Shown here piece by piece: positions 4,426-25,428 of a DNA stretch of 64,000 bases. The position numbers were made by a program, and so were the translations under genes. The stretch comes from Cyanobacteria bacterium M_surface_10_m2_119. GTDB taxonomy: Bacteria > Cyanobacteriota > Cyanobacteriia > PCC-6307 > Cyanobiaceae. The stretch lies in contig VGPU01000004.1 of the NCBI GenBank assembly GCA_016882525.1, positions 1-64,000 of the forward strand, in the 5' to 3' direction. Positions within the stretch are counted from its first letter, which is position 1. Each line of letters starts with the position of its first letter. Under the pieces are notes generated by a model. That model was not told the DNA's origin, searched no databases, and saw only the letters and a program-made list of their open reading frames with translations.

Positions 4426-5592
4426 TCAGAGCGGAGCCTCGGCGGGGAGCCCTGCCGTGGAGGCCCGGTGATCCGCCGGCCCCAGGCGGGTGTAGAGGGC
4501 CTCAAGGCGCAGGGCCAGCTGGGCCAGCAGCTCACGGCTGAACTCCGGTGCCATCAGCAGCAGCATCTCGAACTCATGGCCCTCGAAGCAGAGCAGGGTG
4601 GCCCCGCCGGCGGCGGCACGCACCTCGGAGCGGCGGGGGCTGCTGCTGAAGAACGCCAGCTCACCGATCGTCTCCCCCGGCTCCAGCTCCGCCACCGCGG
4701 TGAACACGCCATTGCCGAGGGCCCGGGGCACCTGGCAGCGGCCCTGCACGAGGATCGCCACCCCGTCGGCAGGGTCCCCCACCTGAAACAGGGGATCCCC
4801 GGGCCCGAGCCGGCGCTCGGAGCCGCAGCGCGCCATGGCCAGCAGGGAGGCCGGCGGCAGGCCAGCCAGCAGCGGCACCTGCAGCAACTGCAGCAGGCGC
4901 TGCTCCGGCTCCAGGGGTTGACCGGCCAGCAAGGCCTGCAGCTCGGGATGGCTGGGACGGCCCGGGCGGGCCTGCTGGCGCAGGGCCGCCGCCCGCAGGG
5001 GGTCGCGCTGGTCCTGCACCCACAGGACCCATAGGGCCGTGTCCGGATCGGGATCCAGCCAGAGGCTGTCGACCACGGCAGCAGGGGCCGGCAAGGGGAC
5101 ACTGGACGCCCAACCCTCAGAGGCAGGCGGGGATGGGGATGGGGATGGGAACAGCCCGGGCAGGCGACCGGCCAGCTGGCGCTGCAGGCGCAGGGGCAAG
5201 GCGGGCAGCAGGCCGGCCACCTGCCGGGGGAGGGGATCCTCCGCCGGCAGGGCCTGAAGGGGGGGGAGGAGGGTGGTGAGCAGGCTGGCCAGGGTGCGTT
5301 CCTGCACCGGCACGAGCGGCGCCAGCAGGGGATCCACCGCGGCGGCGCTGCGCAGACTCTCCAGACCCTCAAGGCGACCCTGCAGCTGCACGGCCGCCTC
5401 GACCAGCCAGCGGCGATGGACACCCGAGCCGGCCGTGAACCGCTCCAGCAGCTCCTGCCAGGCGTCGTCGTCGAAGCCCTGCTCGCGGCGGATGCGCTCC
5501 AGGGTGCTCTGCAGGCTGGGGCGGGCAAGCACCTGGGCAGGGGGTTCATCGGGATCGAGGGCGAGCAGGTCCTGCACCGCCTCCAGGGCCAC
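4426..5592 (-). CDS. Cyclic-nucleotide-binding protein, C-terminal part of a TAG-split frame
   Basis: The 388 residues end in a cyclic-nucleotide-binding domain (about residues 255-380): LGPGDPLFQVGDPADGVAIL, then the phosphate-binding cassette GETIGELAFFSSSPRRSEVRA with its arginine. The front is helix-rich and leucine-rich, with a SPSPSP linker near residue 150. Upstream of the GTG at 5592 the same frame continues as LAITERRLLELDDREEDLRE straight into the 4Fe-4S gene, separated only by one TAG at 5665-5667. This is therefore probably the C-terminal half of a protein of about 900 residues, either split by mutation or truly read as two proteins. No good ribosome site was seen before the GTG. 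Confidence 0.7.
   Translation of the reverse strand: MALEAVQDLLALDPDEPPAQVLARPSLQSTLERIRREQGFDDDAWQELLERFTAGSGVHRRWLVEAAVQLQGRLEGLESLRSAAAVDPLLAPLVPVQERTLASLLTTLLPPLQALPAEDPLPRQVAGLLPALPLRLQRQLAGRLPGLFPSPSPSPPASEGWASSVPLPAPAAVVDSLWLDPDPDTALWVLWVQDQRDPLRAAALRQQARPGRPSHPELQALLAGQPLEPEQRLLQLLQVPLLAGLPPASLLAMARCGSERRLGPGDPLFQVGDPADGVAILVQGRCQVPRALGNGVFTAVAELEPGETIGELAFFSSSPRRSEVRAAAGGATLLCFEGHEFEMLLLMAPEFSRELLAQLALRLEALYTRLGPADHRASTAGLPAEAPL
5129..5149 (+). other. G-quadruplex-type G tract inside the cyclic-nucleotide gene
   Basis: Four G runs (GGGG, GGGG, GGGG, GGG) separated by AT each time lie on the plus strand and encode the SPSPSP linker on the minus strand. The pattern fits the G3+N1-7 quadruplex rule. 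It may only be a by-product of the repeated Ser-Pro codons. Confidence 0.4.
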
Positions 5593-5664
5593 CGCCCGGC
5601 GCAGCTCCCTGAGGTCTTCCTCGCGATCATCGAGCTCCAGCAGGCGCCGCTCGGTGATGGCCAG

Positions 5665-7131
5665 CTACCGCAGCACGGTGTGGTGGTCGTCATCGGAGAG
5701 CTGCAGGGAGCGACGCACCTCCGTGAGCTGCAACAGGGCCGCCGCCCGGGTGAGGCGACCGCTGCGCAGCAGATCCGCCACCACCCCCCGATAGACGGCG
5801 AGCCGGGAAGCCCCCATCTGGGCCGGCAGCACCTTGGCCAGGGTGACCACCTCGTCGGCGCTCAGATCCTCCGGCTTGCGCCCGTCGAGATGGTGGGCCA
5901 GATCGGGCACCAGCTTCTGCAGCTGCAGGCGCAGGCTGGTGCTGATGCGCTCCCGGGCGTAATGCCCCTGATCGCGCCGCAGTCCGCGGTAGAGCCACAC
6001 GGCGCTCACCGCGAGCACCAGCATGCGCACCGGCGGCATGGCGGCGGCAGCCGCGGGCACCAGGTGGGGCTCACTCAGGCCGAAGAAGGCGTTCACCGCC
6101 ACGAAGGAGGCCAGCAGGCGGGTGATCTGATCGGCGCGCTGGCCGGCAGCAGCGCCCAGCCTCGGGCGCAGCCGCCGCAGCTGGGCGGCGCGGAAGGCCC
6201 GGCCCAGCAGCACGGACAAGCCCGCCACGGCCAGCAGCAGCAGGGGTGCCCAAGGCCGCTGGGTGGCCGGCAGGCGCTGGAGAAGCAGAAAGCCGACTAC
6301 CAGGCCGGGATAGGAGAACCAGGCCCAGGCCAAGCCGGGTTTGCCGCGCAGTCCCTCCCAGAAACTGAGCTCGGCGTCGATGTCGATGCAATCTTTCTGG
6401 CAGCCCACACAGGCCCGCTGCACCTGGCCGCTGGGCCCGATGCTCCGACAGGTGGACTGGGTGATCTGGCCGGAACCGGCCAGGTGGGCGGCGCTGCCCA
6501 GCAGGCTGCGGGGACCCACCAGGATCGACTGCACCGGGGCCATCGGGCAGATGTACTGACACCAGGCCTTGCCGGCCCAGGCCCAGCCCACCACCAGGGC
6601 CGCCGCCAGGGTGGCCAGCAGGAAGACCGCCAGCCAGCGGGGGCTGTGGTTGAGCAGCACCAGGCGCAAGCTGAGACCCGCCAAAAACAGCCCCCACTGC
6701 AGGCGCACGTGATGGCGGGCCAGCCAGCCGGCCGGTGCGACCCGGGCCACGCTGGGGCGGCCCCGGACGTCGGGCACGCTGCGCTGCCAGCCGATCGCAC
6801 GGGCCAGCTGGGAGACGAAGGCAAGCGGACAGAGACGGCGCCAGGCCTCATGGCTGAGGACGACGAGCACCAGCAGCACCAGGGGCACACCGACCTGCCA
6901 GAACAGCCCGAGGGCGGTGGTGGCAACCGCCGGATCGGGCAGGAACAGGGAGCCGATCAGCAGCAGCCAGGCCGCCAGCAGCAGCCAGCGCACGACGTGG
7001 GCCTGGCGTTCACTCCAGGCGTGGAAGGCCAGCACAGGGGCAGGCGGTTCCGCAGAGAGGCCCAGGCTAGGCAGCGCATGGAGGCGGCACCAGCGCAAAA
7101 ACGCAGGCCTTTCAGCCAGGGAGGATGGCAC
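5665..7131 (-). CDS. Membrane 4Fe-4S (NapH/FixG-like) protein, N-terminal part of a TAG-split frame
   Basis: A polytopic membrane protein of about 488 residues. It has an N-terminal hydrophobic pair (near VVRWLLLAAWLLLIGSLFL and VGVPLVLLVLVVLS), CPLAFVSQLARAIGWQ, a cysteine pair in GKAWCQYICPMAPVQS, and CVGCQKDCIDID, an iron-sulfur motif like those of NapH, NosR and FixG. More membrane helices follow, and the last 90 residues are soluble and helical. The frame ends at TAG (5665-5667) after HHTVLR and continues without any shift into the cyclic-nucleotide-binding frame, so the intact ancestor was a membrane redox protein gated or regulated by cAMP/cGMP. GTG at 7131 is taken as start; another GTG at 7173 is possible but overlaps the divergent gene. 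Confidence 0.7.
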   Translation of the reverse strand: MPSSLAERPAFLRWCRLHALPSLGLSAEPPAPVLAFHAWSERQAHVVRWLLLAAWLLLIGSLFLPDPAVATTALGLFWQVGVPLVLLVLVVLSHEAWRRLCPLAFVSQLARAIGWQRSVPDVRGRPSVARVAPAGWLARHHVRLQWGLFLAGLSLRLVLLNHSPRWLAVFLLATLAAALVVGWAWAGKAWCQYICPMAPVQSILVGPRSLLGSAAHLAGSGQITQSTCRSIGPSGQVQRACVGCQKDCIDIDAELSFWEGLRGKPGLAWAWFSYPGLVVGFLLLQRLPATQRPWAPLLLLAVAGLSVLLGRAFRAAQLRRLRPRLGAAAGQRADQITRLLASFVAVNAFFGLSEPHLVPAAAAAMPPVRMLVLAVSAVWLYRGLRRDQGHYARERISTSLRLQLQKLVPDLAHHLDGRKPEDLSADEVVTLAKVLPAQMGASRLAVYRGVVADLLRSGRLTRAAALLQLTEVRRSLQLSDDDHHTVLR

Positions 7132-7157
7132 CAACCCGGTGCTGCGGCAGGCCCGCC

Positions 7158-8601
<1,444 letters not shown>

Positions 8602-12036: not shown

Positions 12037-13957
12037 TCAGGCGCTGCTGCGACTGTCCTTGGGCAGGCCAAAGACAGGAACCTCCCCCGCCCCTTTCAAG
12101 GGCCAGTCCCCCATGAACTGCAAGGGAAGGGAGGCCTCCACCAGCGCAGCGGTGGCCCTGTCGCAGAGCACGGCGGCCTCCGGGAGCTGGCGGGTGAGGC
12201 TCTCCAGCCGGGCCGCCAGGTTCACCGTTTCACCGATCACGGTGAACTCCATCCGCCGGGGGCTGCCGATCTGGCCTGCCACCACCGTGCCGCTGGCCAA
12301 CCCGATCCCATTGGCCAGGGGCTCCTCGCCGTCGGCCTGCCAACGCGCATTGAGGCGGTGGAGCGCCTCTCCCATCGCCACGGCGGCCCGCACGGCGGCC
12401 ATCGCCTCCTCCTGCTCACCGCGGCTCACGGGGGATCCGAACACCGCCACCACGCAGTCGCCGATGAACTTGTCGATGGTGCCGCCATGGGCGGTGACCA
12501 CCTCGACCATCTCGGCGAGATAGGCATTGAGCTGGGACACCAGGGCAGCCGTCTGTCCCGCCTCCGCGCGCCGCCGGGTGAGCGCGGTGAAGCCCTGGAG
12601 GTCGCAGAACAGAACCGTGACCGGCAGCGACTTGCCGCGCAGGATGGTGTCGGCCTCCTCGGGAGTGGCCAGGATTTCCGACACAACGCTGGGAGCGACA
12701 TAGCGCTCGAAGGTGCGGCGCAGTCGGCGGCGCTCCCGGCCCTCCACGAGATAGGCGTCCACGCCATAGACCAGCGCCAGCGCCGCCAGGGCCGTGGCCG
12801 GCGCCAGCAGGGGCAGCCAGCGATGCCCCCAGCGCAGGGCGCCATAGCCAGCCAGCAGGATCAGGGTCAGCAGCCCGGCGAGCAGCCCCAGCCGCAGCCC
12901 CAGCGGCGTTGCCAGGCGCTGCATCCCCAGGACGGCCAGCAGCACCGGGGCCAGGGCCAGCAAGGCCCGGGACCACAGCCCTCCTGGCCAGGGGGCCAGC
13001 CCATCCCCGGCCAGGGAATTGGCCGTGGCGGTGGCCAGGGTCTCCAGGCCGGAGATCGGGCCAAAGGGCGTCGGCAGGCCCACGCCCCCCTGGTCCACCA
13101 CGGGGCCCACCAGCACCACGGCGCCGGCGATGGAGCCCCGCAGGGGATGGTCCCGCCAGCGGGCGGGGTCGAGCACCTCCCAGGCCGAGAGTCGGGGGAA
13201 CTGGGGTTCTGGTCCATAGACCTTGAGCTCCCGCTGGCGGTCGGGCTGCCGGCTGGGCAGGCCAGCCTGGCGGAGCACCGTGGTGCTCAGGGCCGGGAAC
13301 GGCGGCAGGTCCCTGGAGGGAAGGAGTTCCGCGCCGAAGAATTCCGGATGGCGGATCGCTTCGCCGCGGCCCGGGGGAAGGATGTTCGACAGTCCGAGCC
13401 CGGGGCGGTCGCCGGGGGGGGGCTGGCTGGGCGAGGGTCCCGCTGAAGCGCTCGGGGAGCACCAGAACAAGACCCGTGCCGAACTGGGCATCGTCCGGTT
13501 CCATGAACTCGGCCGCCAGGGCGATGTGGCCGCGGTGGCGGCCCAGAGCTCCCAGCAGGGCGGCGTCATCGGCCGGCCCCCGGGCACTGGCGCCCTCGAA
13601 GACGACATTGAGCGCCACCGCCCGGGCACCGGCCCCGCGCAACCGCTCGACCAGGTCGGCATAGCGGGCCCTGGGCCAGGGCAGGGTGCTGGTGCCCGCC
13701 GCCCAGGCCGGAGGGTTCGGCTCATCGGCGAACCAATGCCCCTGCTGCAGGCTGGCGTCGTCGATGGCCACCACCACCACCCCCGGCGGCACGGGTGCGG
13801 GTCCGCGCAGGCGCAGGAACTCGGCCTCAACGATCCGCTCCCAGCTCCGCCAGACCAGGGGGGGGCGGGCCACCAGCAGGGCCGTGGCGGCCAGGATCAA
13901 GGCCGAACACAGACGGAGCCGGGCGGGACGGCTCAGGGGGCAACGGAGCCAGGGCAC
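12037..13957 (-). pseudogene. CHASE2-adenylate/guanylate cyclase, frameshifted (module 1)
   Basis: Reads as one CHASE2-TM-class III cyclase gene only if the frame is changed near 13414-13422. Upstream of that point the minus-strand frame gives VVVVAIDDASLQQGHWFAD and LALAAEFMEP-type CHASE2 sequence; downstream the other frame gives WEVLDPARW, the membrane helices and an intact cyclase (LFCDLQGFTAL, IDKFIGDCVVAVFG, EFTVIGETVNLAARLE: both metal aspartates, lysine, threonine, asparagine and arginine present). The break coincides with nine consecutive C on the coding strand; eight would restore SGTLAQPAPPGDRPGLGLSN. The GTG at 13957 starts two bases after the natural FecR stop. It is closely related to the cyclase at 20381. 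Confidence 0.85.
13414..13422 (-). repeat. Nine-base homopolymer (C9 on the coding strand) at the cyclase frameshift
   Basis: A run of nine G on the plus strand lies exactly where the two halves of the module 1 cyclase change frame. Removing one base rejoins the halves without any other change. Such tracts slip during replication and are also common sequencing-error sites, so both phase variation and error are possible. Confidence 0.85.
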
Positions 13958-13959
13958 CC

Positions 13960-14711
13960 CTAGAAGGGGAGCAGCGGCAGGGGCACCAGCCCGCGGTTGC
14001 CACCGGTGCGCAGCAGCCCCAGCAGCAGACAGCTCCGGGGACGGACCCGAGCAGCATGGAGGTGAGAGCCTGCACCTTGGGCAAGGGGAAGAAAAAGCCC
14101 TGCAGCAGGTCACTGGCGAAATAGCGCCGGTAATCCGAGGACACGAGACAGCGCCGACTCTCCAGCTGGCCATCGGCCGCGAAACGAAGCACCTCCCGGT
14201 TGGCGGCCAGGGGAACCACCGAGGGCTTGCCGCTTTCGCCCAGGCTCGGTGAGAAGGTCATCATGCCGTCGAGCACGGCCACCTGGGTGGTCTGGTCGTC
14301 GAGCACTTCCACGACGTAATGGGTGCCCCGCACGCTCATCCGGATGCTGCCGACACAGGTGTCCTGCCTGCCCGAGACCAGCATCTGCCCATTCTGCAGA
14401 CGACCACAGTCGGCGCCGAGACGCAGCTGGGAGTTCTTGCTGATACGGGCCTGGGCGCCGTTGCTCAGGGCAAGGCTGCCCCGGCTGTTGCCGGTGGTGA
14501 TCACTTCGGGCCGGAAGGCCAGCTGATTCACCCGGGCCTGTTTGCGATCAATGAACAGCTCATTGCCGTCAAGGATCTCCTGCACGCGGGCATCGGGCCG
14601 GGGCCCCGCCACAGCCGCAAGCGGTGGAAGTGCTCCGCAGGACGCGGCCAGCAGGAGACCAGCCAGACAACCCCGCCGACCACCCCGGCACGTCGTTCAC
14701 GAAGCACGCAT
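13960..14711 (-). pseudogene. FecR-domain protein, decayed (module 1)
   Basis: The FecR core is clear (VQEILDGNELFIDRKQARVN, then SVRGTHYVVEVLDDQTTQVA). The frame is open from GTG 14612, but upstream in the same frame lies a good secretion signal (CLAGLLLAASCGALPPLAAVA) preceded by ATG CGT GCT TCG TGA: the natural start at 14711 is followed by a stop at codon 5 (14697-14699). Near 14038-14042 a one-base slip is also needed: the present frame turns cysteine-rich and runs to 13827, while the neighbouring frame ends LVPLPLLPF at TAG 13960-13962, two bases before the cyclase start. Translation from GTG 14612 (13827-14612) would lack the signal peptide. Confidence 0.65.
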
Positions 14712-14778
14712 CGAAGGAGAAGCGGCCACGACACAGCGGGGCAGACGCCCACTAGGCAAAGTGTCCGGACGGAACTGT

Positions 14779-16644
14779 TCACTGCTCACACTTCTGCAGT
14801 GGGCGGCGCAGGCCGCGCAGTCCGTAGACCGCCATGGGCTCGGCCCAGCCCTTGAGACGGTGCTCCCCCAGGGGATCTGCGTCGAGCTGATCCGCCAGCA
14901 GGGCATGCACATCGGCGCTGATCAACACCGGATAGTCGGGAAACTGGCGGGTGAGCCCCTCCAGCCGACTGGCCAGGTTCACGGCGGCCCCCACCACCGT
15001 GAACTCCAGCCGCTCGCTGGAGCCCAGGTTGCCGGCGATCACATCCCCCAGGTGGATGCCGATGCCCTGACGGAGGGTGGGCTCCCCCCGGGCGAGCAGC
15101 TCGGCGTTGAGCCGCTGCAGCGACGCCTGCATCGCCAGGGCGGCTCGCACCGCCGCCAGGGCTTCCAACGCATCACCGCGACTGCGGGGCACCCCGAACT
15201 CCGCCATCAGGGCGTCGCCGATGAACTTGTCGAGCAAGCCGTTCTCCGCCATCACGGCCGCCGCGATCGCCTCGAAGTAGCGGTTCAGGAGGGCGAACAG
15301 CGCCTGGGGTTCCAACTGGCCGCTGAGCACCGTGAAGCCCACCAGGTCGGCGAACAGCACCACACAGCGGGTGCGGGTTCCCCCGAGCTGGGTCCCGAGG
15401 GGGCCGGGCTCCCGCAGGATGTCGGCCAGCAGGGCGGGCGACACACGCCGGGCCAGCACCTGATGGAGGTAGGCCCGCTCCCGGCTTTCCACCAGCCACT
15501 GCCCACCGGCGCGCGTGCCACCACCCAGCAGGGGAGCGGCGACCAGGGCCGTCACCGGCAGCCACCAGCCCGCCAGCCAGGCCAGGGCCACCCCACCCAG
15601 CCCTCCTGCCGCCAGGGCGAGGGCCGTGGTTGCGGTGCCGGCCGCGGTGCCCGGCCGGGCCAGCCCCGCCAGGGCCACGAGCCCCCAGGCCAGAAGCAGC
15701 CCCGCACTGAAGGCCGGCTGCGGAGTCCGGAAACCGCGCCCCTCGAGCACCGTGGCCAGCGCCGCCGCCTGCAGCTCCACGCTGCTCAGGGGACCGAAGG
15801 GTGAGGGGCGCCGGTCGGCAAGCCGGGAGGGGGTATGCCCCAGCAGCACGATCCGGTTGCGCCAGAAGCCGGGTGGTTGCTGCAGCACCTGCCAGGCCGG
15901 CACCACGGGCACGGTGCCGCTGGGCCCGGGGAAGTCAATGCCCAGGCTGGCTGGCGGCGGCTGGCGACCGGCCGCCACCCAGGCCAGGGCCGGGGGATGG
16001 GGGAGGGGGAAGCCAGCGAGCGCCTGGCTCTGCCAGCGCTGGCCGGGGATGGCCTCAATGACCCCATCCGGGCCCTCCAGCAGGGCATCCAGACCAACCG
16101 CACCCAAGGAATTGACGGGCCGGCGCAGCTGCAACAGCTCGAGTCCGGAGACCGGATCGGGCTCCACGCCATAGCCGGCTGGCAGCACCAGGCGCTGCCG
16201 CCAGGGCTGCAGGCGACTCCGGAAGGCCCGATCGTCGGCGGGGCCAAAGCTGCTGGGGTGGGGATAGAGCAGCGTGAACACCACCCGTTGCGCTCCCTGC
16301 TCCAGCAGGAGAGCCGCCAGCTCCGCCTGCAGGCCCCTGGGCCAGGGCCAGGGAGTCCCCATGCGCCGCCACAGGGCAGAACGCTCGACCTCCTGCTTCG
16401 ACAACCGCTCGCCCAGGGTCAGGGAGGCCTCATCGATCTCCAGGATCACCAGCTCCGGCGGCGGACGGCGCGGGCCGCGCAGGCGAAAGGCCAGAGCCCG
16501 CCAACCGGCATCGAGCCTCTCCATCGCTGGACTGGCCACCAGCGTGGCCAGCAGCACGGCCGGCCAACCCCAACGCAGCAGCGGCGGGCCCCGCCTGCCC
16601 TCCTGCCCCACCAGGGTGCCAGGACTCTGCTGGGGGCTGGTCAT
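14779..16644 (-). CDS. CHASE2-class III nucleotide cyclase (module 2)
   Basis: A 621-residue membrane cyclase. It has an N-terminal helix (about 20-45), an extracytoplasmic CHASE2 sensor (about 50-320, with LVILEIDEASLTLGERL and VFTLLYPHPSSFGPADD), two or three membrane helices (about 325-400) and a cytoplasmic class III cyclase domain (about 430-610). Metal aspartates are in VLFADLVGFTVL and DKFIGDALMAEFG; the lysine in DKFIGD and threonine in LEFTVVG favour ATP; the VNLASRLE asparagine and arginine are present, so it should make cAMP. The start ATG overlaps the stop of the FecR gene upstream (TGATG type), showing tight coupling. It is the most divergent of the three cyclases here. Confidence 0.92.
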   Translation of the reverse strand: MTSPQQSPGTLVGQEGRRGPPLLRWGWPAVLLATLVASPAMERLDAGWRALAFRLRGPRRPPPELVILEIDEASLTLGERLSKQEVERSALWRRMGTPWPWPRGLQAELAALLLEQGAQRVVFTLLYPHPSSFGPADDRAFRSRLQPWRQRLVLPAGYGVEPDPVSGLELLQLRRPVNSLGAVGLDALLEGPDGVIEAIPGQRWQSQALAGFPLPHPPALAWVAAGRQPPPASLGIDFPGPSGTVPVVPAWQVLQQPPGFWRNRIVLLGHTPSRLADRRPSPFGPLSSVELQAAALATVLEGRGFRTPQPAFSAGLLLAWGLVALAGLARPGTAAGTATTALALAAGGLGGVALAWLAGWWLPVTALVAAPLLGGGTRAGGQWLVESRERAYLHQVLARRVSPALLADILREPGPLGTQLGGTRTRCVVLFADLVGFTVLSGQLEPQALFALLNRYFEAIAAAVMAENGLLDKFIGDALMAEFGVPRSRGDALEALAAVRAALAMQASLQRLNAELLARGEPTLRQGIGIHLGDVIAGNLGSSERLEFTVVGAAVNLASRLEGLTRQFPDYPVLISADVHALLADQLDADPLGEHRLKGWAEPMAVYGLRGLRRPLQKCEQ

Positions 16645-17342
16645 CAGCGCTGCAGTCCCAGCTCCCGTTCCAGCACCGGCAGGGTCTCCATCGGTGCGGT
16701 GAAGCCATTGAGCAGGATGCTCTGGGCCCGGCGTGTGCGGAGCTCGGCCTGACCCAGGCGTCGCGGCCCCTGCCAGGCCTGGGGCCCCTGCGAGCCGGCC
16801 GACGCCGCCCAGGTGAGCTGTTCCCCACTCCGCAACACGAAGCGCTCACCGGTCTCGGTGCGCACCTGCACCTCCCCTTCCCAGCTGAACACCTTCACCG
16901 CCGCCGCGCTGACCTCCAGGAACACCGTGGTGCCAACGATCGACGCGGTGCCGACACGGGTCTTGACCCGCAGGGGCGCCCCACCACCGGAGCCGGGATT
17001 CACCCAGGCGATGATCTGGCCCCGCTGCAGATCCAGCCCTGACGAAGCCAATCGGAGCAGGGCATCGCCGCCCAGCCTGAAACGGCGGCCGTCGGCGAGC
17101 TCGACCTGGAGACGGCCGGGCTTCTGGGTGCGCAGGACCGTGTCGGGCAGGAGGTTCTGGCCGATTCGGGCGTCGGTCTCAGTGCGACCGGGAAGACGCA
17201 CAAAGGCCGGACGGGTGGGGACGTCCACGATCCGGGGCAGGCTCCCCTGGCCAGCAGGAGGGGCTGACGGAGCGCAGCCCGCGAGAGCCACGGCCAGCAC
17301 CATGACCCTGAGCGGCCTGAAACGGTGCTGGCGAGACGACAC
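16644..17342 (-). CDS. FecR-domain lipoprotein (module 2)
   Basis: A 232-residue exported protein. The N-terminus is a lipoprotein signal (RVMVLAVALAGCAPS, lipobox LAGC, cysteine about residue 23). The FecR core follows (about 55-170): VLRTQKPGRLQVELADGRRF, ASSGLDLQRGQIIAWVN, VKTRVGTASIVGTTVFLEV and WEGEVQVRTETGERFVLRSG. FecR proteins usually relay signals across the periplasm, but no sigma factor or TonB receptor is here; the only partner is the CHASE2 cyclase that overlaps its stop. That it presents a cue to CHASE2 is inference. Confidence 0.85.
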   Translation of the reverse strand: MSSRQHRFRPLRVMVLAVALAGCAPSAPPAGQGSLPRIVDVPTRPAFVRLPGRTETDARIGQNLLPDTVLRTQKPGRLQVELADGRRFRLGGDALLRLASSGLDLQRGQIIAWVNPGSGGGAPLRVKTRVGTASIVGTTVFLEVSAAAVKVFSWEGEVQVRTETGERFVLRSGEQLTWAASAGSQGPQAWQGPRRLGQAELRTRRAQSILLNGFTAPMETLPVLERELGLQR

Positions 17343-17375
17343 GGGGAAAGCCGAAGCTTTCCCCAGGCTGCTGAC

Positions 17376-17834
17376 TCAGCCCTCGACGCGCCACACCTGA
17401 TCAGCGGGGGTCCAGTCGCTCAGCTCGGAGGGCTGGAACCAGAGGCCGATCTCGAACGCGGCAGTTTCGGGAGCGTCGGAGCCGTGGATCACGTTGCGGC
17501 CGATGTTCACGGCCAGGTCGCCGCGGATGGTGCCGGGTTCAGCCTCGAGGGGCTTGGTGGCGCCGATCAGCTTGCGGGCGCTGGCGATCACGCCGTCGCC
17601 TTCCCACACCATCGCCACCACGGGGCCGGAGGTGATGAACTCCACCAGACCGGCGAAGAAGGGGCGCTCGCGGTGCACGCCGTAGTGGCTCTCGGCCAGC
17701 TCACGGCTGGGGGTGAGCTGCTTGAGGCCCACCAGCTTGAAGCCCTTGCGCTCGAAGCGGCCGAGGATCTCCCCCACCAGGCCGCGCTGCACGCCATCGG
17801 GCTTGATGGCAACAAAAGTGCGTTCAGCAGCCAT
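17376..17834 (-). CDS. ndk: Nucleoside diphosphate kinase
   Basis: Ndk balances nucleoside triphosphates by a ping-pong phosphotransfer. The 152-residue protein has the usual length, starts [19 protein letters not shown], and has the catalytic histidine (about residue 117) in [12 protein letters not shown]. The frame extends upstream to 17987 but the ATG at 17834 is the family start. It shares a divergent region of about 158 bases with speA. Confidence 0.98.
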
Positions 17835-17992
17835 GGAAACAGAAGGTTCGGATCCGGCCCATCGTCCGCGGCGGGGCTGCCGCTTGGCAAGCACAACTCT
17901 GGCGGTGGTCGTCAGCCCTCTTCCCCAGCCCATGACCGCACCACCCCCCTGATGACGGCAGACTCCAAAATCAGGGCGTATCCGCACCTGCA

Positions 17993-19987
17993 GTGCCTGT
18001 GGTGACCGCTCCTTCCGCCAGCGCAGGCCAACGCCATGACTGGAGCGTCGCCGACAGCGCCGAGCTCTATGGCCTCAACCGCTGGGGGGATCCCTACTTC
18101 GCTGTGAACGCCCGCGGCCACGTGTGCGTGCAGCCCCAGGGGGAACGGGGCGGCAGCCTGGATCTGGTGGACCTGGTGCAGGGGCTGGAGGGCCGCAACC
18201 TGGGCCTGCCGCTGCTGATCCGCTTCGACGACATCCTCGAAGACCGGCTCGAGCGACTGCACGCCGCCTTTGAGCGCGCCATCGCCCAGTACGGCTACGC
18301 CGGCCGCTACCAGGGCGTGTTTCCGGTGAAGTGCAACCAGCAGCGCCATGTGGTGGAGGAGCTGGTGGCCTGCGGCAAGCGCTGGCATTTCGGCCTGGAG
18401 GCCGGCAGCAAAGCCGAGCTGCTGATCGCCCTGTCGCTGATCGACGACCCCGAGGCGCTGCTGATCTGCAACGGCTACAAGGATCAGCGCTACATCGAGA
18501 CGGCGATCCTGGCCCGCCGCCTCGGCCGCCAGCCGGTGGTGGTGATCGAGCAGGCCGACGAAGTGGAGCGAATCATCGCCGCCAGCCGTGAGCTGGGAGC
18601 CGCGCCGTTCATCGGCATTCGCGCCAAGTTGTCGAGCCGCAGCACCGGCCGCTGGGGCAGCTCCGTGGGCGAGAAAGCCAAGTTCGGCCTGTCGATTCCC
18701 GACGTGCTGGCCACGGTGGAGGCCCTGCGCGCCGCCGGGCTGCTGGACGACCTGCGCCTGCTGCACTTCCACGTGGGCAGCCAGATCAACGACATCGCCG
18801 TGCTCAAGGACGCCCTGCAGGAAGCCGGGCAGATCTACGTGGAGCTCACCAAGCTGGGCGCGCCGATGGGCTTTCTCGATGTGGGCGGCGGCCTCGGCAT
18901 CGACTACGACGGCAGCCGCACCGCCAGCGCCGCCTCCACCAATTACTCGCTGCAGAACTACGCCAACGACGTGGTGGCCACGGTGCGCGAGTGCTGCGAG
19001 CCCCATGGGGTGCCGGTGCCCACGCTGGTGAGCGAGAGCGGCCGGGCCCTGGCCAGCCACTTCTCGGTGCTGGTGTTCAACGTGCTGGGCTCAGGCAGTG
19101 TGCTGGGCGGTGGCTGCGCTGCAGGTGGCGGTGCTGCAGGTGGAGCGGCCGACGAGCCGCTGATCGTGCGCAACCTGCGCGAGACCCTGGGCGCCATTAC
19201 CGCCCTGGGCGCCGGCGACCCCGACAGCCTGGCCCGGTTGCAGGAGGCCTGGAACGACGCCATCAAGTTCAAAGACGACGCCCTGGCCGCCTTCCGCCTG
19301 GGCTACCTGAACCTGCCCCAGCGCGCCGCTGCCGAGCAGCTCACCTGGGCCTGCGCCGAGGCGATCGTGGCCCGCCTGCCCCAGGACGGCAGCCCCCAGA
19401 ACGGCCCCGTGCCCGATGAACTCAAGGCCCTGCAGGCCGCCCTGGCCGGCACCTACTACGCCAACCTCTCGGTGTTCCGCTCGGCCCCCGACACCTGGGC
19501 GATCGAGCAGCTGTTCCCGGTGATGCCGATCCACCGGCTCAACGAACGGCCCACCCAGCTCGGCCACTTCGCCGACCTCACCTGCGATTCCGACGGCAAG
19601 CTCGCCCGCTTCGTGGGCAACGGCCAGGTGAAGCCCCTGCTGGAGCTCCATGCCCTGCGCCCCGGCGAGCCGTACCTGATCGGCCTGTTCCTGGGCGGCG
19701 CCTACCAGGAGGTGATGGGCAACCTGCACAACCTGTTCGGCAGCACCAATGCGGTGCACATCCGCCTCACCAGCGGCGGTGGCTACCGGCTCGACCACGT
19801 GGTGCGGGGCAACACCAACGCCGAGGTGCTCGAAGCGATGGAACACGACCCGGAGCTGCTGCTGGAGCGGCTGCGCCTGGCCAGCGAAGCGGCGATCGGC
19901 CGCGGCGACCTGCGGATCAGCGACGCCCGCCGGCTGATGGACCACCTGGAGACCAGCCTGCGGCAGACCACCTACCTGCAGAACTGA
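17993..19987 (+). CDS. speA: Biosynthetic arginine decarboxylase
   Basis: SpeA makes agmatine from arginine with PLP, the first step to polyamines. The 664-residue length, the PLP-lysine block [46 protein letters not shown] and [17 protein letters not shown] identify it. A Gly/Ala-rich insert lies near residues 365-385 (between [12 protein letters not shown] and [10 protein letters not shown]). Either GTG 17993 or GTG 18002 could start it; no ATG is available. The 3' end nearly touches the convergent DUF3307 gene. Confidence 0.96.
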
Positions 19988-19990
19988 GCC

Positions 19991-20341
19991 TCACCACAAG
20001 GGCAGGTCGAGCCAGCTGCAGGCCAGGCCCGTCCACCCCAGCTTGCAGAGCAGATGCAGGGCCTGATCCGGCCCAAGGCGGAACCAGCCGCGGCACTTGA
20101 GGTGATCGATCAGGGCATGCACCAGCCATTCGGCCAGGCCCAGCTGGGGCAGGCCGGTGATCACGGCCACCAGGAACCCATGGATGCCGGCATGGGCGAC
20201 AAGCCACCACGGCCAGGGCAGGGTGTGATCGCGGCCGGCACACTTCTCCACCCCCATGCGATCGCTCTGCAGGCCGAAATCGCCGAGGAAATGCCCCATC
20301 GCCAGGAGAGCGAGCAGGGCGGCGCCCGAGGTGGTCGGCAT
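19991..20341 (-). CDS. DUF3307 membrane protein
   Basis: A 116-residue small membrane protein of the DUF3307 family: LLALLAMGHFLGDFGLQSDRM near the N-terminus, HAGIHGFLVAVITGL, AEWLVHALIDHLKCRGWF with its conserved histidine and aspartate, and a final hydrophobic helix. About three to four membrane segments. The function of the family is unknown. It sits between speA and cyclase module 3. Confidence 0.8.
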   Translation of the reverse strand: MPTTSGAALLALLAMGHFLGDFGLQSDRMGVEKCAGRDHTLPWPWWLVAHAGIHGFLVAVITGLPQLGLAEWLVHALIDHLKCRGWFRLGPDQALHLLCKLGWTGLACSWLDLPLW

Positions 20342-20380
20342 GGCGGCGGGACGAGGGGGCAGCGGGGGAGCTGGGCTTCC

Positions 20381-22291
20381 TCAGCTTGACGGTTCGGGCT
20401 GCCCCGCACCAGAGCCGGCCGCCGCCCACACCCCGAAGACCTCGGTGGGCTCGAGCCCCTTGATCTCCTGCACGCCGAAGCTGCGCAGGCTGAAGCCCGG
20501 CTCTCCAGCAAGCAGGCCGGCGGTGGCGGCATCGATGCACACCGCCGCATCCAGACGGCGGGTGAGGCCCTCGAGGCGGCTGGCCAGATTCACCGTGTCG
20601 CCGATCACGGTGAACTCCAGCCGCTGGGGGCTGCCGATCTGACCGGCGAGCACCTCCCCGGAAGCCAGCCCCACGCCGCTGGCGAGGGGGTCCAGCCCCT
20701 GTTCACGCCAGCTGGCATTGAGGCTGTCCAGCCGGACCCGCATCGCCAGCGCACAGCGCACGGCCGCCGCCGCCTCCTGTTCCACGCCGCGCCCCACCGG
20801 CGAGCCGAACACGGCCATCACCGCATCGCCGATGAATTTGTCAACCGTGCCGCCGTGGGCCGTGATCACCTCGACCATGGCGCCGAGATAGGTGTTGAGC
20901 TGGCGCACATGCACCTCGGTCTCGCCGGCGGCACTGCGGCGGCGGGTGAGCTCGGTGAACCCCTTGAGATCAGAGAACAGCACCGTCACCTTGCGCACGC
21001 GACCGCGCAGGATGCCCTGGGCCGCAGCGGGATCCGCCAGGATTTCGGCCACCACGCTGGGGGCCACGTAGCGCTCGAAGGTGCGGCGCAGGCGGCGCCG
21101 TTCCCGCCCCTCCCGCAGGTAGGCATCCCCGCCGTAGATCAAGCCCAGGAGCACCAGACCGCTGGCTGGGGACAGCAACGGCAGCCAGCGCTGCTGGCTG
21201 CTGAGCATCAGCCAGGCCGCCAGCACCTGGCCAGCCAGCACCGCCGCCACCACCCCCAGCCGCCAGGGCAGGGAAGAGCGCACCAGGGCCAGCCCGGCCG
21301 CCGCCGCCACGCCTGCAGCCGCCAGCAGGGCCCGGGACCAGGGGGTGAAAGGCCAGGGGGCCAGACCGTCGCCGACCAGGGAATTGGCAACAGCGGTGCC
21401 CAGCACCTCCAGGCCGGAGAGCGTGCCGAAGGGCGTGCTGTGGCCCGCCTCCCCCTGGGAGACGACGGGACCCACCAGCACCAGGGCACCACGCACGGCC
21501 GGCCGCAGGGGCTGGCGGGACCAGCGCTTGGGGTCGAGCACCTCCCAGGCGGGAATGCGGCGCAGCTGCCCCTCCGGGCCATAGACCTGCAACTCCCGGG
21601 CCGCATCCGGCTGCAGGCTGCGCCGGCCGGCCAGCTGCAGCAGACGTGCCGCCAGAGATGGGGGAGAGTCGACCCCCTGGGATTCGAGGGCGGCGGGATA
21701 GACCGCGGGATGGCGCAGGGGCTGGCCCGGGGAGGGGTGGAGGAGGTTGGTCACCCCCAGGGGCAAGGTGCTGGGCACAGCCGCCTGGAGAGCCTCAGGA
21801 CGCACGAGCACCAGCCCACCGGCCCCCTGGTTGTCCTGGGGCTCCAACCACTCGGCAGCCAGGGCGATCCGCCCCGAATGGCGGCGCAGCACGGCGACCA
21901 GGGCCGCATCATCGCCAGGACCCTGACCACTGGGGCCTTCGAAGACCACGTTGATCGCCACCGCCGCCGCCCCGGCCTGGAGGAGGGTCTCGCAGAGGCG
22001 GCCGTAGGCGGCGCGGGGCCAGGGCAGCCGGCCGATACCCTGGGCCCAGGGTGGGATCTCGGCCGCCCCGTCCTGGCCCTGCGCAAACCAGTCCCCCTGC
22101 TGGAGGGTGGCGTCATCAATGGTGACCAGCACCACGGCTTCAGGGGCAGGCCGTGGACCACGCCACTGGAGCAGCTGGGCATCGAGGTTGCGCTCCCACA
22201 CCCGCAGCCGCGGCCCCGGCCAACCCGCGGAGACCCCCGCCCAGCAGGCCGTCAGGGCGGAGAGCAGCAGCAGCACCCCACGGCGGCCCAC
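20381..22291 (-). CDS. CHASE2-class III nucleotide cyclase (module 3)
   Basis: A 636-residue intact cyclase. The CHASE2 part spans about residues 40-310 (VVLVTIDDATLQQGDWFAQ, AVAINVVFEGPSGQGPGDDA, WEVLDPKRW, VLVGPVVSQGEAGHSTPFG). Membrane helices lie about 325-400, a charged linker DAYLREGRERRRLRRTFERY follows, and the cyclase runs about 430-600. The aspartates in LFSDLKGF and DKFIGDAVMAVFG, the lysine, the threonine in EFTVIGD and the VNLASRLE asparagine and arginine are all present. It closely resembles the broken module 1 cyclase. The FecR gene ends 16 bases upstream. Confidence 0.93.
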   Translation of the reverse strand: MGRRGVLLLLSALTACWAGVSAGWPGPRLRVWERNLDAQLLQWRGPRPAPEAVVLVTIDDATLQQGDWFAQGQDGAAEIPPWAQGIGRLPWPRAAYGRLCETLLQAGAAAVAINVVFEGPSGQGPGDDAALVAVLRRHSGRIALAAEWLEPQDNQGAGGLVLVRPEALQAAVPSTLPLGVTNLLHPSPGQPLRHPAVYPAALESQGVDSPPSLAARLLQLAGRRSLQPDAARELQVYGPEGQLRRIPAWEVLDPKRWSRQPLRPAVRGALVLVGPVVSQGEAGHSTPFGTLSGLEVLGTAVANSLVGDGLAPWPFTPWSRALLAAAGVAAAAGLALVRSSLPWRLGVVAAVLAGQVLAAWLMLSSQQRWLPLLSPASGLVLLGLIYGGDAYLREGRERRRLRRTFERYVAPSVVAEILADPAAAQGILRGRVRKVTVLFSDLKGFTELTRRRSAAGETEVHVRQLNTYLGAMVEVITAHGGTVDKFIGDAVMAVFGSPVGRGVEQEAAAAVRCALAMRVRLDSLNASWREQGLDPLASGVGLASGEVLAGQIGSPQRLEFTVIGDTVNLASRLEGLTRRLDAAVCIDAATAGLLAGEPGFSLRSFGVQEIKGLEPTEVFGVWAAAGSGAGQPEPSS

Positions 22292-22307
22292 GGTGCGTCA
22301 GCCGGGC

Positions 22308-23084
22308 TCAGAAGAACCCGAAGCCGAAGCCCCGGAAGGAGGGCCCCGCCGGGCTCACCGGCAGGGAGGGAATGGGCACGCTGGGCAGATTGGAGCGCAG
22401 GAAGCTCTCCAGAGCTGCCTGGGCAGGGAGGGGCAGCTTGAAGCCCTCGAACAGCGGACCATTGAGGATCTGGGTGTAGTCGCCACTGCTGAGGGCCAGG
22501 ATCGTGAGCACCACCCCCTCGGGAGAGAGCCGTAGCCGTTGACCGGCCTGCAGGGTGGTGGCCGGCTTCTCGGGGATGGGCTCGCCCTCCCGGGTGGGCT
22601 GCACCTCCACCTCTCCCTCAAGGACGGAGATCTCGGTGTCGCCGGCCTCGTTCACCTCGATCACATAGTTGGTGCCACGCACGCTGAGGCGGGCGGAGCG
22701 GGTGCAGCCCGCCTGTTTGCCGGAAACCAGCACCTGGCCCTTGTCGAGCACGAAGCAGGCACTGCCGAGCCGCAGCTGCGACTGGCGGTTGAGCCGACCC
22801 ACCGCACCGCCATCGAAGGCGAGCTGGCCGCGACTCTTGCCGGTGGAGATCAGCTGGGGAGAGCGGGCCTTCTGCTTGACGCGGGCCTGTTCCCGATCGA
22901 TGAACAGCTCCTTGCCATCCAGGATCTCCTGCACCACGGCCGTCTGGCTCTGCTGCGCCGCAGCCGGCAGGGGCGTGAGGGCGGCGACCGCAAGCAGGGC
23001 GAACGCCCCCGGGAACAGGCCAGGGAGCGGCCAGGGCTTGAGACGCGGCCTGCCGCAGGCAGACCTCCGGCGGAGAGAGGGCAC
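22308..23084 (-). CDS. FecR-domain exported protein (module 3)
   Basis: A 258-residue exported protein. The GTG at 23084 has a GGGAG ribosome site upstream and leads into a basic start plus hydrophobic core (LFPGAFALLAVAALTPLPAAA), a Sec signal cut near AAA-QQSQ. The FecR domain carries VQEILDGKELFIDREQARVK, LRLGSACFVLDKGQVLVSG and LSVRGTNYVIEVNEAGDTE, and the C-terminus is glycine/phenylalanine-rich. It is the intact counterpart of the decayed FecR at 13960. The frame is open upstream to 23207 but without features. Confidence 0.87.
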   Translation of the reverse strand: MPSLRRRSACGRPRLKPWPLPGLFPGAFALLAVAALTPLPAAAQQSQTAVVQEILDGKELFIDREQARVKQKARSPQLISTGKSRGQLAFDGGAVGRLNRQSQLRLGSACFVLDKGQVLVSGKQAGCTRSARLSVRGTNYVIEVNEAGDTEISVLEGEVEVQPTREGEPIPEKPATTLQAGQRLRLSPEGVVLTILALSSGDYTQILNGPLFEGFKLPLPAQAALESFLRSNLPSVPIPSLPVSPAGPSFRGFGFGFF

Positions 23085-23139
23085 GACTGCTCCCAGCTCA
23101 GGTCGGGACCATTGTGACGCGAGGGTGCGGCACGGCCCC

Positions 23140-23880
23140 TCAGCTGGCACAGAAGCGCACAAACAGGGAGAGCCGGTCGGTGGGCTGGGGTAACTCGGCC
23201 GGATCAAAGGGGGCGGCCTCGGCAGCCATGCCGCGCAGCATCACCGGCCGGAGGTCATGACCCTCCTGCCGAACCTCCAGGGGCTCCAGCCGGCTGCGCC
23301 CCACGGCTGCGGCCAGCTCCCGCGCCTGGGCCAGCGCATCCTGGTAGGCCGCGCGCAGCAGGCGAGCCCGCACCGCGGGCACGGCGGCGGGATCGGCTTC
23401 CGCCGTCACGGGATTGAGGCGCACGCCCTCCAGCGCACCCACCCCACGCACGAAGGCCTGCAACCGGGCTGGTGCCAGCTGCCCGCTCACCTGCAGGTTG
23501 GCCACCACCCGTTCTCCGCTGGCAGGGGGCTGCTGGGACCGCTGCCAGGTGATCGGGGAGCTGACGCGCAGATCCTGCACCTGCAACGCCTGGAGGCGTT
23601 CGCGCACGGCCGCCAGCCGCCGCTGCAGGGCCGCCAGAGCACCATCGGCATCGGCGGCCTCGGCCTCCAGCCCCAGGGAGACGGCCAGGCGCTGGGTGTC
23701 GCGCTTGAGCTCCGCATTGCCGCGCGTCTCGAGCAGGGCTCCACGGCACTGCAGCTGCACCTGCACCTGGGACCTGGACGGGGTGAGCGCACCCGCGCCC
23801 AGCACCAGCCCCAGGGGGAGGAGCATCAGGGGCCGCAGCCTCGGCAGCCGGCAGGACGACAGGCGTGGAATGGAGGCCAT
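23140..23880 (-). CDS. SIMPL (DUF541) domain exported protein
   Basis: A 246-residue protein with an N-terminal signal or anchor (LRPLMLLPLGLVLGAGAL) and a SIMPL/DUF541 domain: GNAELKRDTQRLAVSLGLEA, LQALQVQDLRVSSPITW, and the helix LLRAAYQDALAQARELAAAV. Such proteins are periplasmic or outer-envelope oligomers of unclear role. The ATG at 23880 is the family start. It diverges from the MscS-type channel at 23938 with only 57 bases between, so the two may share control. Confidence 0.85.
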   Translation of the reverse strand: MASIPRLSSCRLPRLRPLMLLPLGLVLGAGALTPSRSQVQVQLQCRGALLETRGNAELKRDTQRLAVSLGLEAEAADADGALAALQRRLAAVRERLQALQVQDLRVSSPITWQRSQQPPASGERVVANLQVSGQLAPARLQAFVRGVGALEGVRLNPVTAEADPAAVPAVRARLLRAAYQDALAQARELAAAVGRSRLEPLEVRQEGHDLRPVMLRGMAAEAAPFDPAELPQPTDRLSLFVRFCAS

Positions 23881-23937
23881 GGCACCACGGGAGGTCTGGC
23901 TCCATGCTGGGGCCAGCTGGACAATTCGCCGCCGGCC

Positions 23938-25428
23938 ATGGCCCTGCTGCAACGGTTGCTTCCGGCGCTCCTGGCCGCTGCCCTCCTCCTGCTGCTGCAT
24001 CGCCTGGTGCAGCCCCAGCTCCGCCGCCGTGCCCTGGGGCAGCTACCGCTGGGCCTGATCGCCCTGGCTCTGCTGAGCTGGAGCCTGCTGCCCATCGTGG
24101 AGGCCCTCGGGCTGCCCGGCGAGTACCGGCGCTGGCTGGGCCTGGCCGATGAGCTGTTGATCAGCTACGCGGCGCTGCGCCTGGCGCTGTGGCTGGGCCT
24201 GGAGCTGCCGGGGGGCCTGGGGTGGTGGCGGCGACCACGGGAACTGCTGCTGCAGTTGCTGATGCTGGGGGGCGGGGCCCTGCTCACCGTGCTGGTGGTG
24301 CGGGAGTCGGCCCGTTTCGACCTGGTGGGACTGGTGACCACCTCCGCGGTCCTCACCGCGGTCGTGGGCTTCGCCGCCCAGGAAACGCTCAAGGATCTGT
24401 TCGCCGGCCTGGAACTGCAGCTGGGTGACGATTTCGCGGTGGGGGACTGGCTGGACGTGGGCCAGGGGGTGCAGGGCCTGGTGGAGACGATCACCTGGCG
24501 CGACACCCAGCTGCGCACCCTGGACGGCTGCCGGCTGATCATTCCCAACAGCCGGATCACGGCCGAAGTGATCAGCAACCGCTCGGCGAGCGGCGTGGCC
24601 AGCAACCGCTTCGAGATCGGCCTCGACTACGACTACCCCCCCGCCCAGGCCCGGTCCCTGCTGGAGGGGGTGCTGCACCAGCACCCGCTGGTGCTGCCCA
24701 CACCGGCACCCCGGGTGCGCATCAAGAGCTTCGCTGACAGCGCCATCACCTACGAACTGCAGGTGTGGCAGCGGGACATGGGCCAGCGGGCCGAGCTGGA
24801 CCTGCGCAGTGCCCTGCTGGAGCAGATCTGGTACGCCCTCCAGCGCGCCGGCCAGAGCATCCCCTTCCCGGTGCGGGAGCTCCAGCCCCGCCGGCGCCAC
24901 CACAGCCCGGCCCCTGCCGAGACCAACGGCGCTCTCGAACTCAGCGGGCTGTTCCAGGTGCTGCCGTTGCAGCAGCGGCAACAACTGGCGCTGGCTGGGA
25001 GGGTGCTGCGCTTCGGCCCCGGAGAAGCGATCGTCTGCGAAGGGGATGCTGGCGACTGCCTCTACCAGGTGCTGAGCGGGCGGGTGGAAGTGCTCAAGAC
25101 CATCGCCCCGGGCCGGCAGGTCTCGGTGCGGGAGCTGGAGTCGGGTGACCTGTTCGGGGAAATGACCCTGCTGCTCGACACCCCGCGCACGGCAACGGTG
25201 CGGGCCCTGGAGGAATGCCGGCTGCTGCAGCTCGACCGGGGGGCCCTCGCGCCCCTGCTGCAGTCCCAACCGGAACTGCTGGAGCAACTGGCCGAGCTGG
25301 TGAGCCACCGCCGCCAGGCGCTCGATCAACTGCAGCAGGTGGAGAGCGGGGCGCCAGACAGCAGCCTGCTGGGGACGATGCGCCGGCTGTTTCAGGCCGT
25401 CACAGGCAGCAGCTCGGCTGACGCATGA
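23938..25428 (+). CDS. MscS-type channel with cyclic-nucleotide-binding domain
   Basis: A 496-residue membrane protein. About four hydrophobic segments fill residues 1-150; the MscS pore and beta domain follow (about 135-300: AVVGFAAQETLKDLFAGLEL, GDWLDVGQGVQGLVETITWR, IPNSRI). The C-terminal cyclic-nucleotide domain (about 330-450) has RVLRFGPGEAIVCEGDAGDC and the cassette DLFGEMTLLLDTPRTATVRA with glutamate and arginine in place. Channels of this type are thought to be gated by cAMP/cGMP. With three cyclase pairs just downstream on the other strand, it is a likely local effector. The frame is open far upstream, but the ATG at 23938 starts the membrane part. Confidence 0.92.
   Translation: MALLQRLLPALLAAALLLLLHRLVQPQLRRRALGQLPLGLIALALLSWSLLPIVEALGLPGEYRRWLGLADELLISYAALRLALWLGLELPGGLGWWRRPRELLLQLLMLGGGALLTVLVVRESARFDLVGLVTTSAVLTAVVGFAAQETLKDLFAGLELQLGDDFAVGDWLDVGQGVQGLVETITWRDTQLRTLDGCRLIIPNSRITAEVISNRSASGVASNRFEIGLDYDYPPAQARSLLEGVLHQHPLVLPTPAPRVRIKSFADSAITYELQVWQRDMGQRAELDLRSALLEQIWYALQRAGQSIPFPVRELQPRRRHHSPAPAETNGALELSGLFQVLPLQQRQQLALAGRVLRFGPGEAIVCEGDAGDCLYQVLSGRVEVLKTIAPGRQVSVRELESGDLFGEMTLLLDTPRTATVRALEECRLLQLDRGALAPLLQSQPELLEQLAELVSHRRQALDQLQQVESGAPDSSLLGTMRRLFQAVTGSSSADA

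Follow-up and report, generated by a model that had tools for sequence, protein, structure and literature searches.

FecR genes paired with CHASE2 genes: a candidate envelope receptor module with varied outputs

In the genome of Cyanobacteria bacterium M_surface_10_m2_119 (family Cyanobiaceae; GenBank assembly GCA_016882525.1) we analysed a stretch of 64,000 nucleotides (contig VGPU01000004.1, positions 1 to 64,000; hereafter the window), which carries three FecR genes, each directly 5' of a gene for a CHASE2 domain joined to a class III nucleotidyl cyclase. Surveys at the level of the family, the phylum and beyond reveal that these two genes stay together across many phyla, no matter which output the CHASE2 protein carries. 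Since FecR accompanies CHASE2 irrespective of the output domain, the simplest reading is that it serves as the partner of CHASE2, and we consider it probable, at about two chances in three, that the two constitute a conserved two-protein receptor module with FecR as the envelope-side subunit. Modelling of FecR3 and domain searches indicate that the FecR partner in the window has the periplasmic FecR fold without the anti-sigma part.

Three FecR-CHASE2 pairs in a single genome

Pfam searches of the window identified three FecR (PF04773) genes on the minus strand, each immediately 5' of a gene coding for CHASE2 and Guanylate_cyc domains. The pairs and the adjacent channel gene are as follows:

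12037..13957, minus strand: CHASE2 and class III nucleotidyl cyclase 1 (Pfam, catalytic motifs; frame change at a run of nine C, 13414-13422)
13960..14687, minus strand: FecR1, type 3 (Pfam; C-terminal end reaches the stop at 13962-13960 only via a frame change)
14779..16644, minus strand: CHASE2 and class III cyclase 2, type 2 (Pfam, motifs)
16644..17342, minus strand: FecR2, type 2 (Pfam; lipobox-like LAGC in the signal sequence, by eye)
20381..22291, minus strand: CHASE2 and class III cyclase 3, type 3 (Pfam, motifs; CHASE2 part modelled with a predicted local distance difference test score, pLDDT, of 91)
22308..23207, minus strand: FecR3, type 3, without anti-sigma domain (Pfam; PupR periplasmic fold)
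23938..25428, plus strand: MscS-type channel with a C-terminal cyclic-nucleotide-binding domain, candidate effector (Pfam; relatives and linkage)

An earlier, sequence-only reading of this stretch had described the three same-strand pairs and their spacing, both of which are confirmed: two bases separate the FecR1 stop (13962-13960) from the GTG start of cyclase 1 at 13957, the genes of pair 2 overlap by one base, and those of pair 3 are 16 bases apart. The whole genome (2.62 Mb in 118 contigs) yields three FecR matches, all in these pairs, and four CHASE2 matches in three genes, all likewise belonging to them. This adjacency is far above chance: with three CHASE2 genes in the genome, the probability that one begins in the 1.5 kb following a given FecR gene, on its strand, is about 0.0009, and it was observed for three of three. 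The unit thereby survived the check, proposed with the sequence-only reading, of whether the adjacency is any more frequent than chance. CHASE2 and Guanylate_cyc are found in one protein in all three cyclases, in cyclase 1 only across its frame change. All three keep the class III motifs, with the catalytic set (Asp twice, Lys, Thr, Asn and Arg) listed in the sequence-only reading. Cyclase 1, however, does not form a single open frame. Scanning the window with Rfam and for tRNA genes produced no matches.

Linkage and cognate pairing within the family

The family set comprised 81 genomes, the source genome included, with 29 FecR matches. For 25 of these a CHASE2 domain follows on the same strand after 270-618 bp, and for 28 it follows after no more than 2 kb, the exception being a FecR gene that stands alone beside alaS (G047). 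In G035, G005 and G048:C24 a second FecR gene is placed between the FecR match and CHASE2. The family pairs are embedded in a conserved block that also contains gatB, thiO, ndk, speA and alaS (gatB, thiO, speA and alaS were named by eye, while Pfam identified NDK and a DAO-type oxidoreductase).

Both proteins fall into types, types 2 and 3 being about 30% identical for FecR and about 35% identical for CHASE2. When pairs with FecR no more than 1.5 kb upstream were tabulated, type 2 accompanied type 2 and type 3 accompanied type 3 in 31 of 31 rows (29 gene pairs, as two genes were each split into two rows), and the absence of any crossed pairing argues that the pairs descend as units.

The family CHASE2 matches themselves form two classes. 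The FecR-linked genes belong to the one with low scores; the other, class B, scores high (134-168 bits) and shows no Pfam FecR match within 10 kb upstream. At four class B loci (L067, L080, L081 and L157) a divergent FecR-like gene occurs downstream; two of these, L081 and L157, were scanned with Pfam, which recognised no FecR in either.

Some further arrangements were noted in the family. Tandem FecR genes precede a single CHASE2 gene at L077:6816-8466, L084:8657-10670 and L073:6275-8553. The genes at L081:16194-18437 and L157:6836-8611, downstream of class B CHASE2 cyclases, combine a FecR-like domain with a region that by eye is long and barrel-like, and have no Pfam match. At L086:1395-8074 a class B CHASE2 cyclase stands beside an ShlB-type transporter and a TPS and CHAT protein, a neighbourhood which suggests another envelope partner for CHASE2.

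The pairing across the phylum and beyond it

For the phylum, 61 of 66 FecR matches from 116 genomes were fetched (left out were those of G091, G106:C23 and G110:C24, and two of G000). Fifteen of the 61 have a CHASE2 domain no more than 700 bp downstream on the same strand, and a further six have one upstream on the same strand, 1.1-1.9 kb away from domain to domain (L103, L111, L115, L123, L126 and L136), with space for another gene between the domains at some of these. The 21 FecR-linked CHASE2 proteins are diverse in their outputs: eight end in class III cyclases, four in GGDEF, two in GGDEF-EAL, three in HisKA kinases and four in HisKA_3 kinases. Outside the phylum, the CHASE2 partner at L187 ends in an HD-GYP-type domain (HD_5). 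A 946-residue frame at L123 that had the appearance of a FecR-CHASE2 fusion was rejected as an overlapping frame.

The search was extended across phyla with six FecR-linked CHASE2 queries, keeping the best 80 of 551 confirmed stretches and detecting FecR with a profile built here. A same-strand FecR was recovered in 56 of these 80 loci (49 upstream and seven downstream only), which is not an unbiased rate because the queries were themselves FecR-linked; strand serves as an internal control for this count, and no locus had FecR on the opposite strand. The remaining 24 loci lack FecR, six of them having less than 1.5 kb of upstream sequence. Judged by recorded taxon, FecR was present at 15 of the 24 cyanobacterial loci and at 41 of the 56 others; these 41 come from records that include alpha-, beta-, gamma- and deltaproteobacteria, Nitrospira, Aminicenantes, Chloroflexi and Rokubacteria. 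Ten FecR proteins from these loci were scanned with Pfam, which confirmed FecR in all ten, found an added LysM domain in six (L185, L187, L192, L199, L200 and L225) and TPR repeats in three (L202, L213 and L233), and matched a TonB-receptor barrel in two, with a score that passed its cut-off in L213 but fell short of it in L233. Taken with the counts from the family and the phylum, these results strongly support the repeated two-gene unit and place it more widely than the sequence-only reading had supposed.

The FecR and CHASE2 proteins

The FecR open reading frames of the window (232-299 residues) match FecR as their sole Pfam domain, with no match to an outer-membrane barrel. The model of FecR3 is confident over residues of about 90-280, and in a fold search it matches the periplasmic signalling domain of PupR (6ovk, E 2.1e-06) and also a Parabacteroides anti-sigma factor. 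The likeness to PupR emerged from the fold search alone, the best match of the FecR sequence in the Protein Data Bank (PDB) having E 0.38. A C-terminal motif is kept within each type, NGFxxPM in type 2 and PLFxGFxxPLP in type 3, the latter falling within the confident part of the FecR3 model. The type 3 tails (22308-22400 in the window, and homologs) are rich in proline, and most of them terminate in Phe (RFF, RLF or GLF). For CHASE2, the closest relative of the sequence in the PDB has E 0.62, and the model found no Foldseek match at E no greater than 0.001 and a best VIA-align Z of 3.4.

The shared fold raises the alternative that these FecRs act as conventional anti-sigma regulators like those of FecIRA systems, with a sigma factor and a TonB receptor encoded elsewhere, as PupR and related regulators have the same periplasmic FecR domain fold. 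We regard this as scarcely credible. DUF4880, the N-terminal anti-sigma domain of FecR, is absent from all three window proteins and has no match genome-wide; nor does the TonB receptor barrel (PF00593), which bears out the earlier statement that no TonB receptor is present, while ECF (extracytoplasmic function) sigma factors were not searched for.

Comparison with known systems

The inner-membrane cyclases CyaK and CyaD1/CyaD2 of Sinorhizobium meliloti work together with the outer-membrane receptor NsrA (PMC7529298; also PMC13001267), which is required for signal perception with CyaK and whose barrel spans residues 600-1200 (PMC7529298). On plasmid pMl9 the gene upstream of cyaK overlaps it by one base and codes for a protein of 1197 residues with FecR (66-160) and TPR domains, which ends in Phe. 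Phe is often the last residue of barrels. The extent of the NsrA barrel and the length of the cyaK-adjacent product suggest that this gene is probably nsrA. As in the window, a FecR-domain gene stands directly 5' of a CHASE2 cyclase gene, and an envelope protein works with inner-membrane CHASE2 adenylate cyclases, as is proposed for the window; the partner there, however, is about 1200 residues long and NsrA has an outer-membrane barrel, whereas the window FecRs are short and barrel-free.

In the Campylobacterota, a CHASE2 adenylate cyclase clusters with a FecR-domain outer-membrane protein, and a single pathway was proposed for them (PMC9239204). The targets that the authors suggest for FecR parts of this kind are transmembrane enzymes for cyclic AMP (cAMP) or cyclic di-GMP in that phylum, and they cite the NsrA work for a model of inhibition, by 'ECF modules', of a transmembrane cAMP enzyme. 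Such a model is consistent with an NsrA that carries FecR, and it suggests that FecR may restrain the enzyme until a signal arrives. Those clusters share the CHASE2 adenylate cyclase and the FecR-domain protein with the window but add a phosphodiesterase and a TPR gene, and the accessible text of PMC9239204 describes no channel. In the BiofilmReg operon of Burkholderia contaminans and a related operon of Pseudomonas aeruginosa PAO1, a LysM/FecR gene lies directly 5' of the gene for a CHASE2 protein (PMC5192318); the output there is a histidine kinase, while the window has cyclases and no LysM.

The suggestion that the window may hold an undescribed system thus went too far: the pairing has been published for Burkholderia/Pseudomonas and the Campylobacterota, along with the idea of FecR acting on a cyclase in the latter, and an outer-membrane receptor ahead of CHASE2 cyclases was already known in Sinorhizobium. 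In the literature searched, which included few subscription journals, the accessible text contains no report of the pairing across phyla with six output kinds, in cyanobacteria, or with a channel. What the present analysis adds is the breadth of the FecR-CHASE2 pairing, the cognate pairing and the linkage to a channel.

The MscS-type channel

Pfam confirmed the protein with MscS and cyclic-nucleotide-binding domains that had been noticed at 23938, and positions 23938-25425 were used to match its relatives. Its closest known counterparts are the bCNG channels of the MscS superfamily, which it resembles in having MscS beta and C-terminal domains followed by the nucleotide-binding domain. It differs in its linkage to CHASE2 cyclases, and its gating by cyclic nucleotides is a prediction. 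With presence defined as E below 1e-90 (weaker matches in G018, G047 and G059 being counted as absent), a relative occurs in 20 of the 81 family genomes. CHASE2 occurs in every one of these 20 genomes versus 6 of the 61 others, and FecR in 18 of 20 versus 2 of 61. Among the 32 genomes of at least 2.2 Mb, FecR is present in 18 of 20 with the channel and 1 of 12 without it (Fisher 7e-06, phylogeny ignored). The nearest CHASE2 on the same contig is no more than about 7.6 kb from the channel in all 20 genomes; for a second copy of the channel, in G005, the contig carries no CHASE2.

These associations make a link between the cyclases and the channel plausible. Nevertheless, there is close to an even chance that the channel is unrelated to the cyclases and merely shares their genomic island, with cAMP acting via other receptors. 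It adjoins alaS in a conserved housekeeping block that also holds speA, in G051 the channel and the FecR pairs are on separate contigs, the Fisher tests disregard phylogeny and presence depends on the chosen cut-off. Against this separation stand the co-occurrence with CHASE2 and FecR and the same-contig proximity described above. Of the linkage proposed in the sequence-only reading, the co-occurrence held up, while the synteny is partly shared with the surrounding block; the further step, from cAMP production to gating of this channel, has support at the genomic level.

Frame breaks and other neighbouring genes

Cyclase 1 lies in two frames, with the N-terminal CHASE2 part in one and the remainder in the other; the switch falls at 13414-13422 within nine consecutive C (G on the plus strand), the longest of the five homopolymers of eight or more in the window. 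FecR1, as judged by eye, also changes frame near its end, before its stop. The cyclase 1 counterpart in a relative (L067) occupies a single frame, which points to a sequencing error or recent decay in pair 1; the run of C may represent an assembly error, decay or a phase-variable tract. Two further genes of the window are:

19994..20380, minus strand: DUF3307 protein, a possible member, encoded between speA and cyclase 3 (10 of the 20 fetched clusters contain a relative)
4426..7236 (about), minus strand: membrane protein with a cyclic-nucleotide-binding domain (split by an in-frame stop, 5665-5667)

The sequence-only reading had presented the second of these as a membrane protein joined to the nucleotide-binding domain. 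Its counterpart in G051 (stretch L070) is indeed one open frame of 872 residues, but in the window the stop cuts the protein in two, and Pfam names no domain in the membrane half. As relatives occur in only 1-2 of the 20 fetched clusters, its membership in the system is doubtful.

Weighing the module against other explanations

Several observations weigh against a dedicated FecR-CHASE2 module. In the phylum, 40 of the 61 FecR matches have no CHASE2 adjoining on their own strand, six of these having one on the opposite strand a few kb away (L117, L121, L135 twice, L139 and L146), and the phylum's 370 CHASE2 matches compare with 21 FecR-linked loci, so that CHASE2 in general does not depend on FecR. 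Beyond the bias of the cross-phylum queries, in six of the 56 positive loci the FecR domain is 2-3.1 kb from CHASE2, three of these (L202, L213 and L223) having a FecR frame of more than 1100 residues. No FecR-CHASE2 fusion occurs in the 56 genome loci, in the 31 family rows or, among the frames listed, in the 21 phylum loci. Co-variation of the two proteins beyond shared descent, measured from distance matrices with SpeA as control, is weak (partial r 0.20, p 0.10, 13 pairs; 0.35, p 0.05, 9 pairs), and the comparison with NsrA depends on an identity of the cyaK-adjacent gene that we infer.

Some of these points would fit an adjacency that reflects inherited synteny or operon convenience with no direct functional link between FecR and CHASE2, in keeping with the location of the family pairs in a conserved block, the weak co-variation beyond SpeA and the many phylum FecRs that lack an adjoining CHASE2. 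We judge this decidedly unlikely, as the pairing recurs in other cyanobacteria and other phyla with varying gene order, FecR coming before or after CHASE2, and FecR shares the strand of CHASE2 in 56 of 56 positive genome loci. FecR might instead act downstream of the cyclase, as a cAMP-controlled envelope protein or a feedback brake that shares its operon. The S. meliloti FecR gene SMc02177 is a target of Clr/cAMP (PMC5498481), which by analogy could make FecR an output. This too appears unlikely to us: FecR also accompanies CHASE2 proteins with GGDEF, EAL, HD-GYP and histidine kinase outputs, so that the constant element is the sensor and not cAMP, and NsrA is needed for the perception of the signal with CyaK.

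Proposed mechanism and significance

Under the two-protein receptor module, FecR would be the envelope-side subunit and, according to lineage, would be inserted in the outer membrane, bound to peptidoglycan or attached as a lipoprotein. In that position it would meet an external ligand or a change in the envelope. It would then act on the periplasmic CHASE2 domain, as an activator or as a released clamp, and CHASE2 would switch the cytoplasmic enzyme across the inner membrane. In the window, the three paralogous pairs would set the level of cAMP, or possibly cyclic GMP, each with its own input; in a less supported step, the neighbouring MscS-type channel would be one target of the cyclic nucleotide. 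We give even odds to a more general architecture, in which an exchangeable, envelope-anchored FecR (outer-membrane barrel, LysM or lipoprotein) signals to CHASE2 proteins with at least six kinds of output. FecR would then lead two lives, one with sigma factors and one with CHASE2 receptors, much of CHASE2 sensing would be protein-mediated, and in this lineage the three receptors described here would control an MscS channel that is gated by cyclic nucleotides and retained next to them.

What CHASE2 domains sense has been described as unknown (PMC5192318), and our results suggest that FecR-CHASE2 pairs are a common but little recognised route for envelope signals into the cell. Should FecR be the dedicated partner of CHASE2 in the envelope, many orphan CHASE2 cyclases, diguanylate cyclases and kinases would gain a testable input, and the Sinorhizobium receptor would become one case of a general design. 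Likewise, cyanobacterial cAMP signalling would gain candidate receptors and a candidate channel target.

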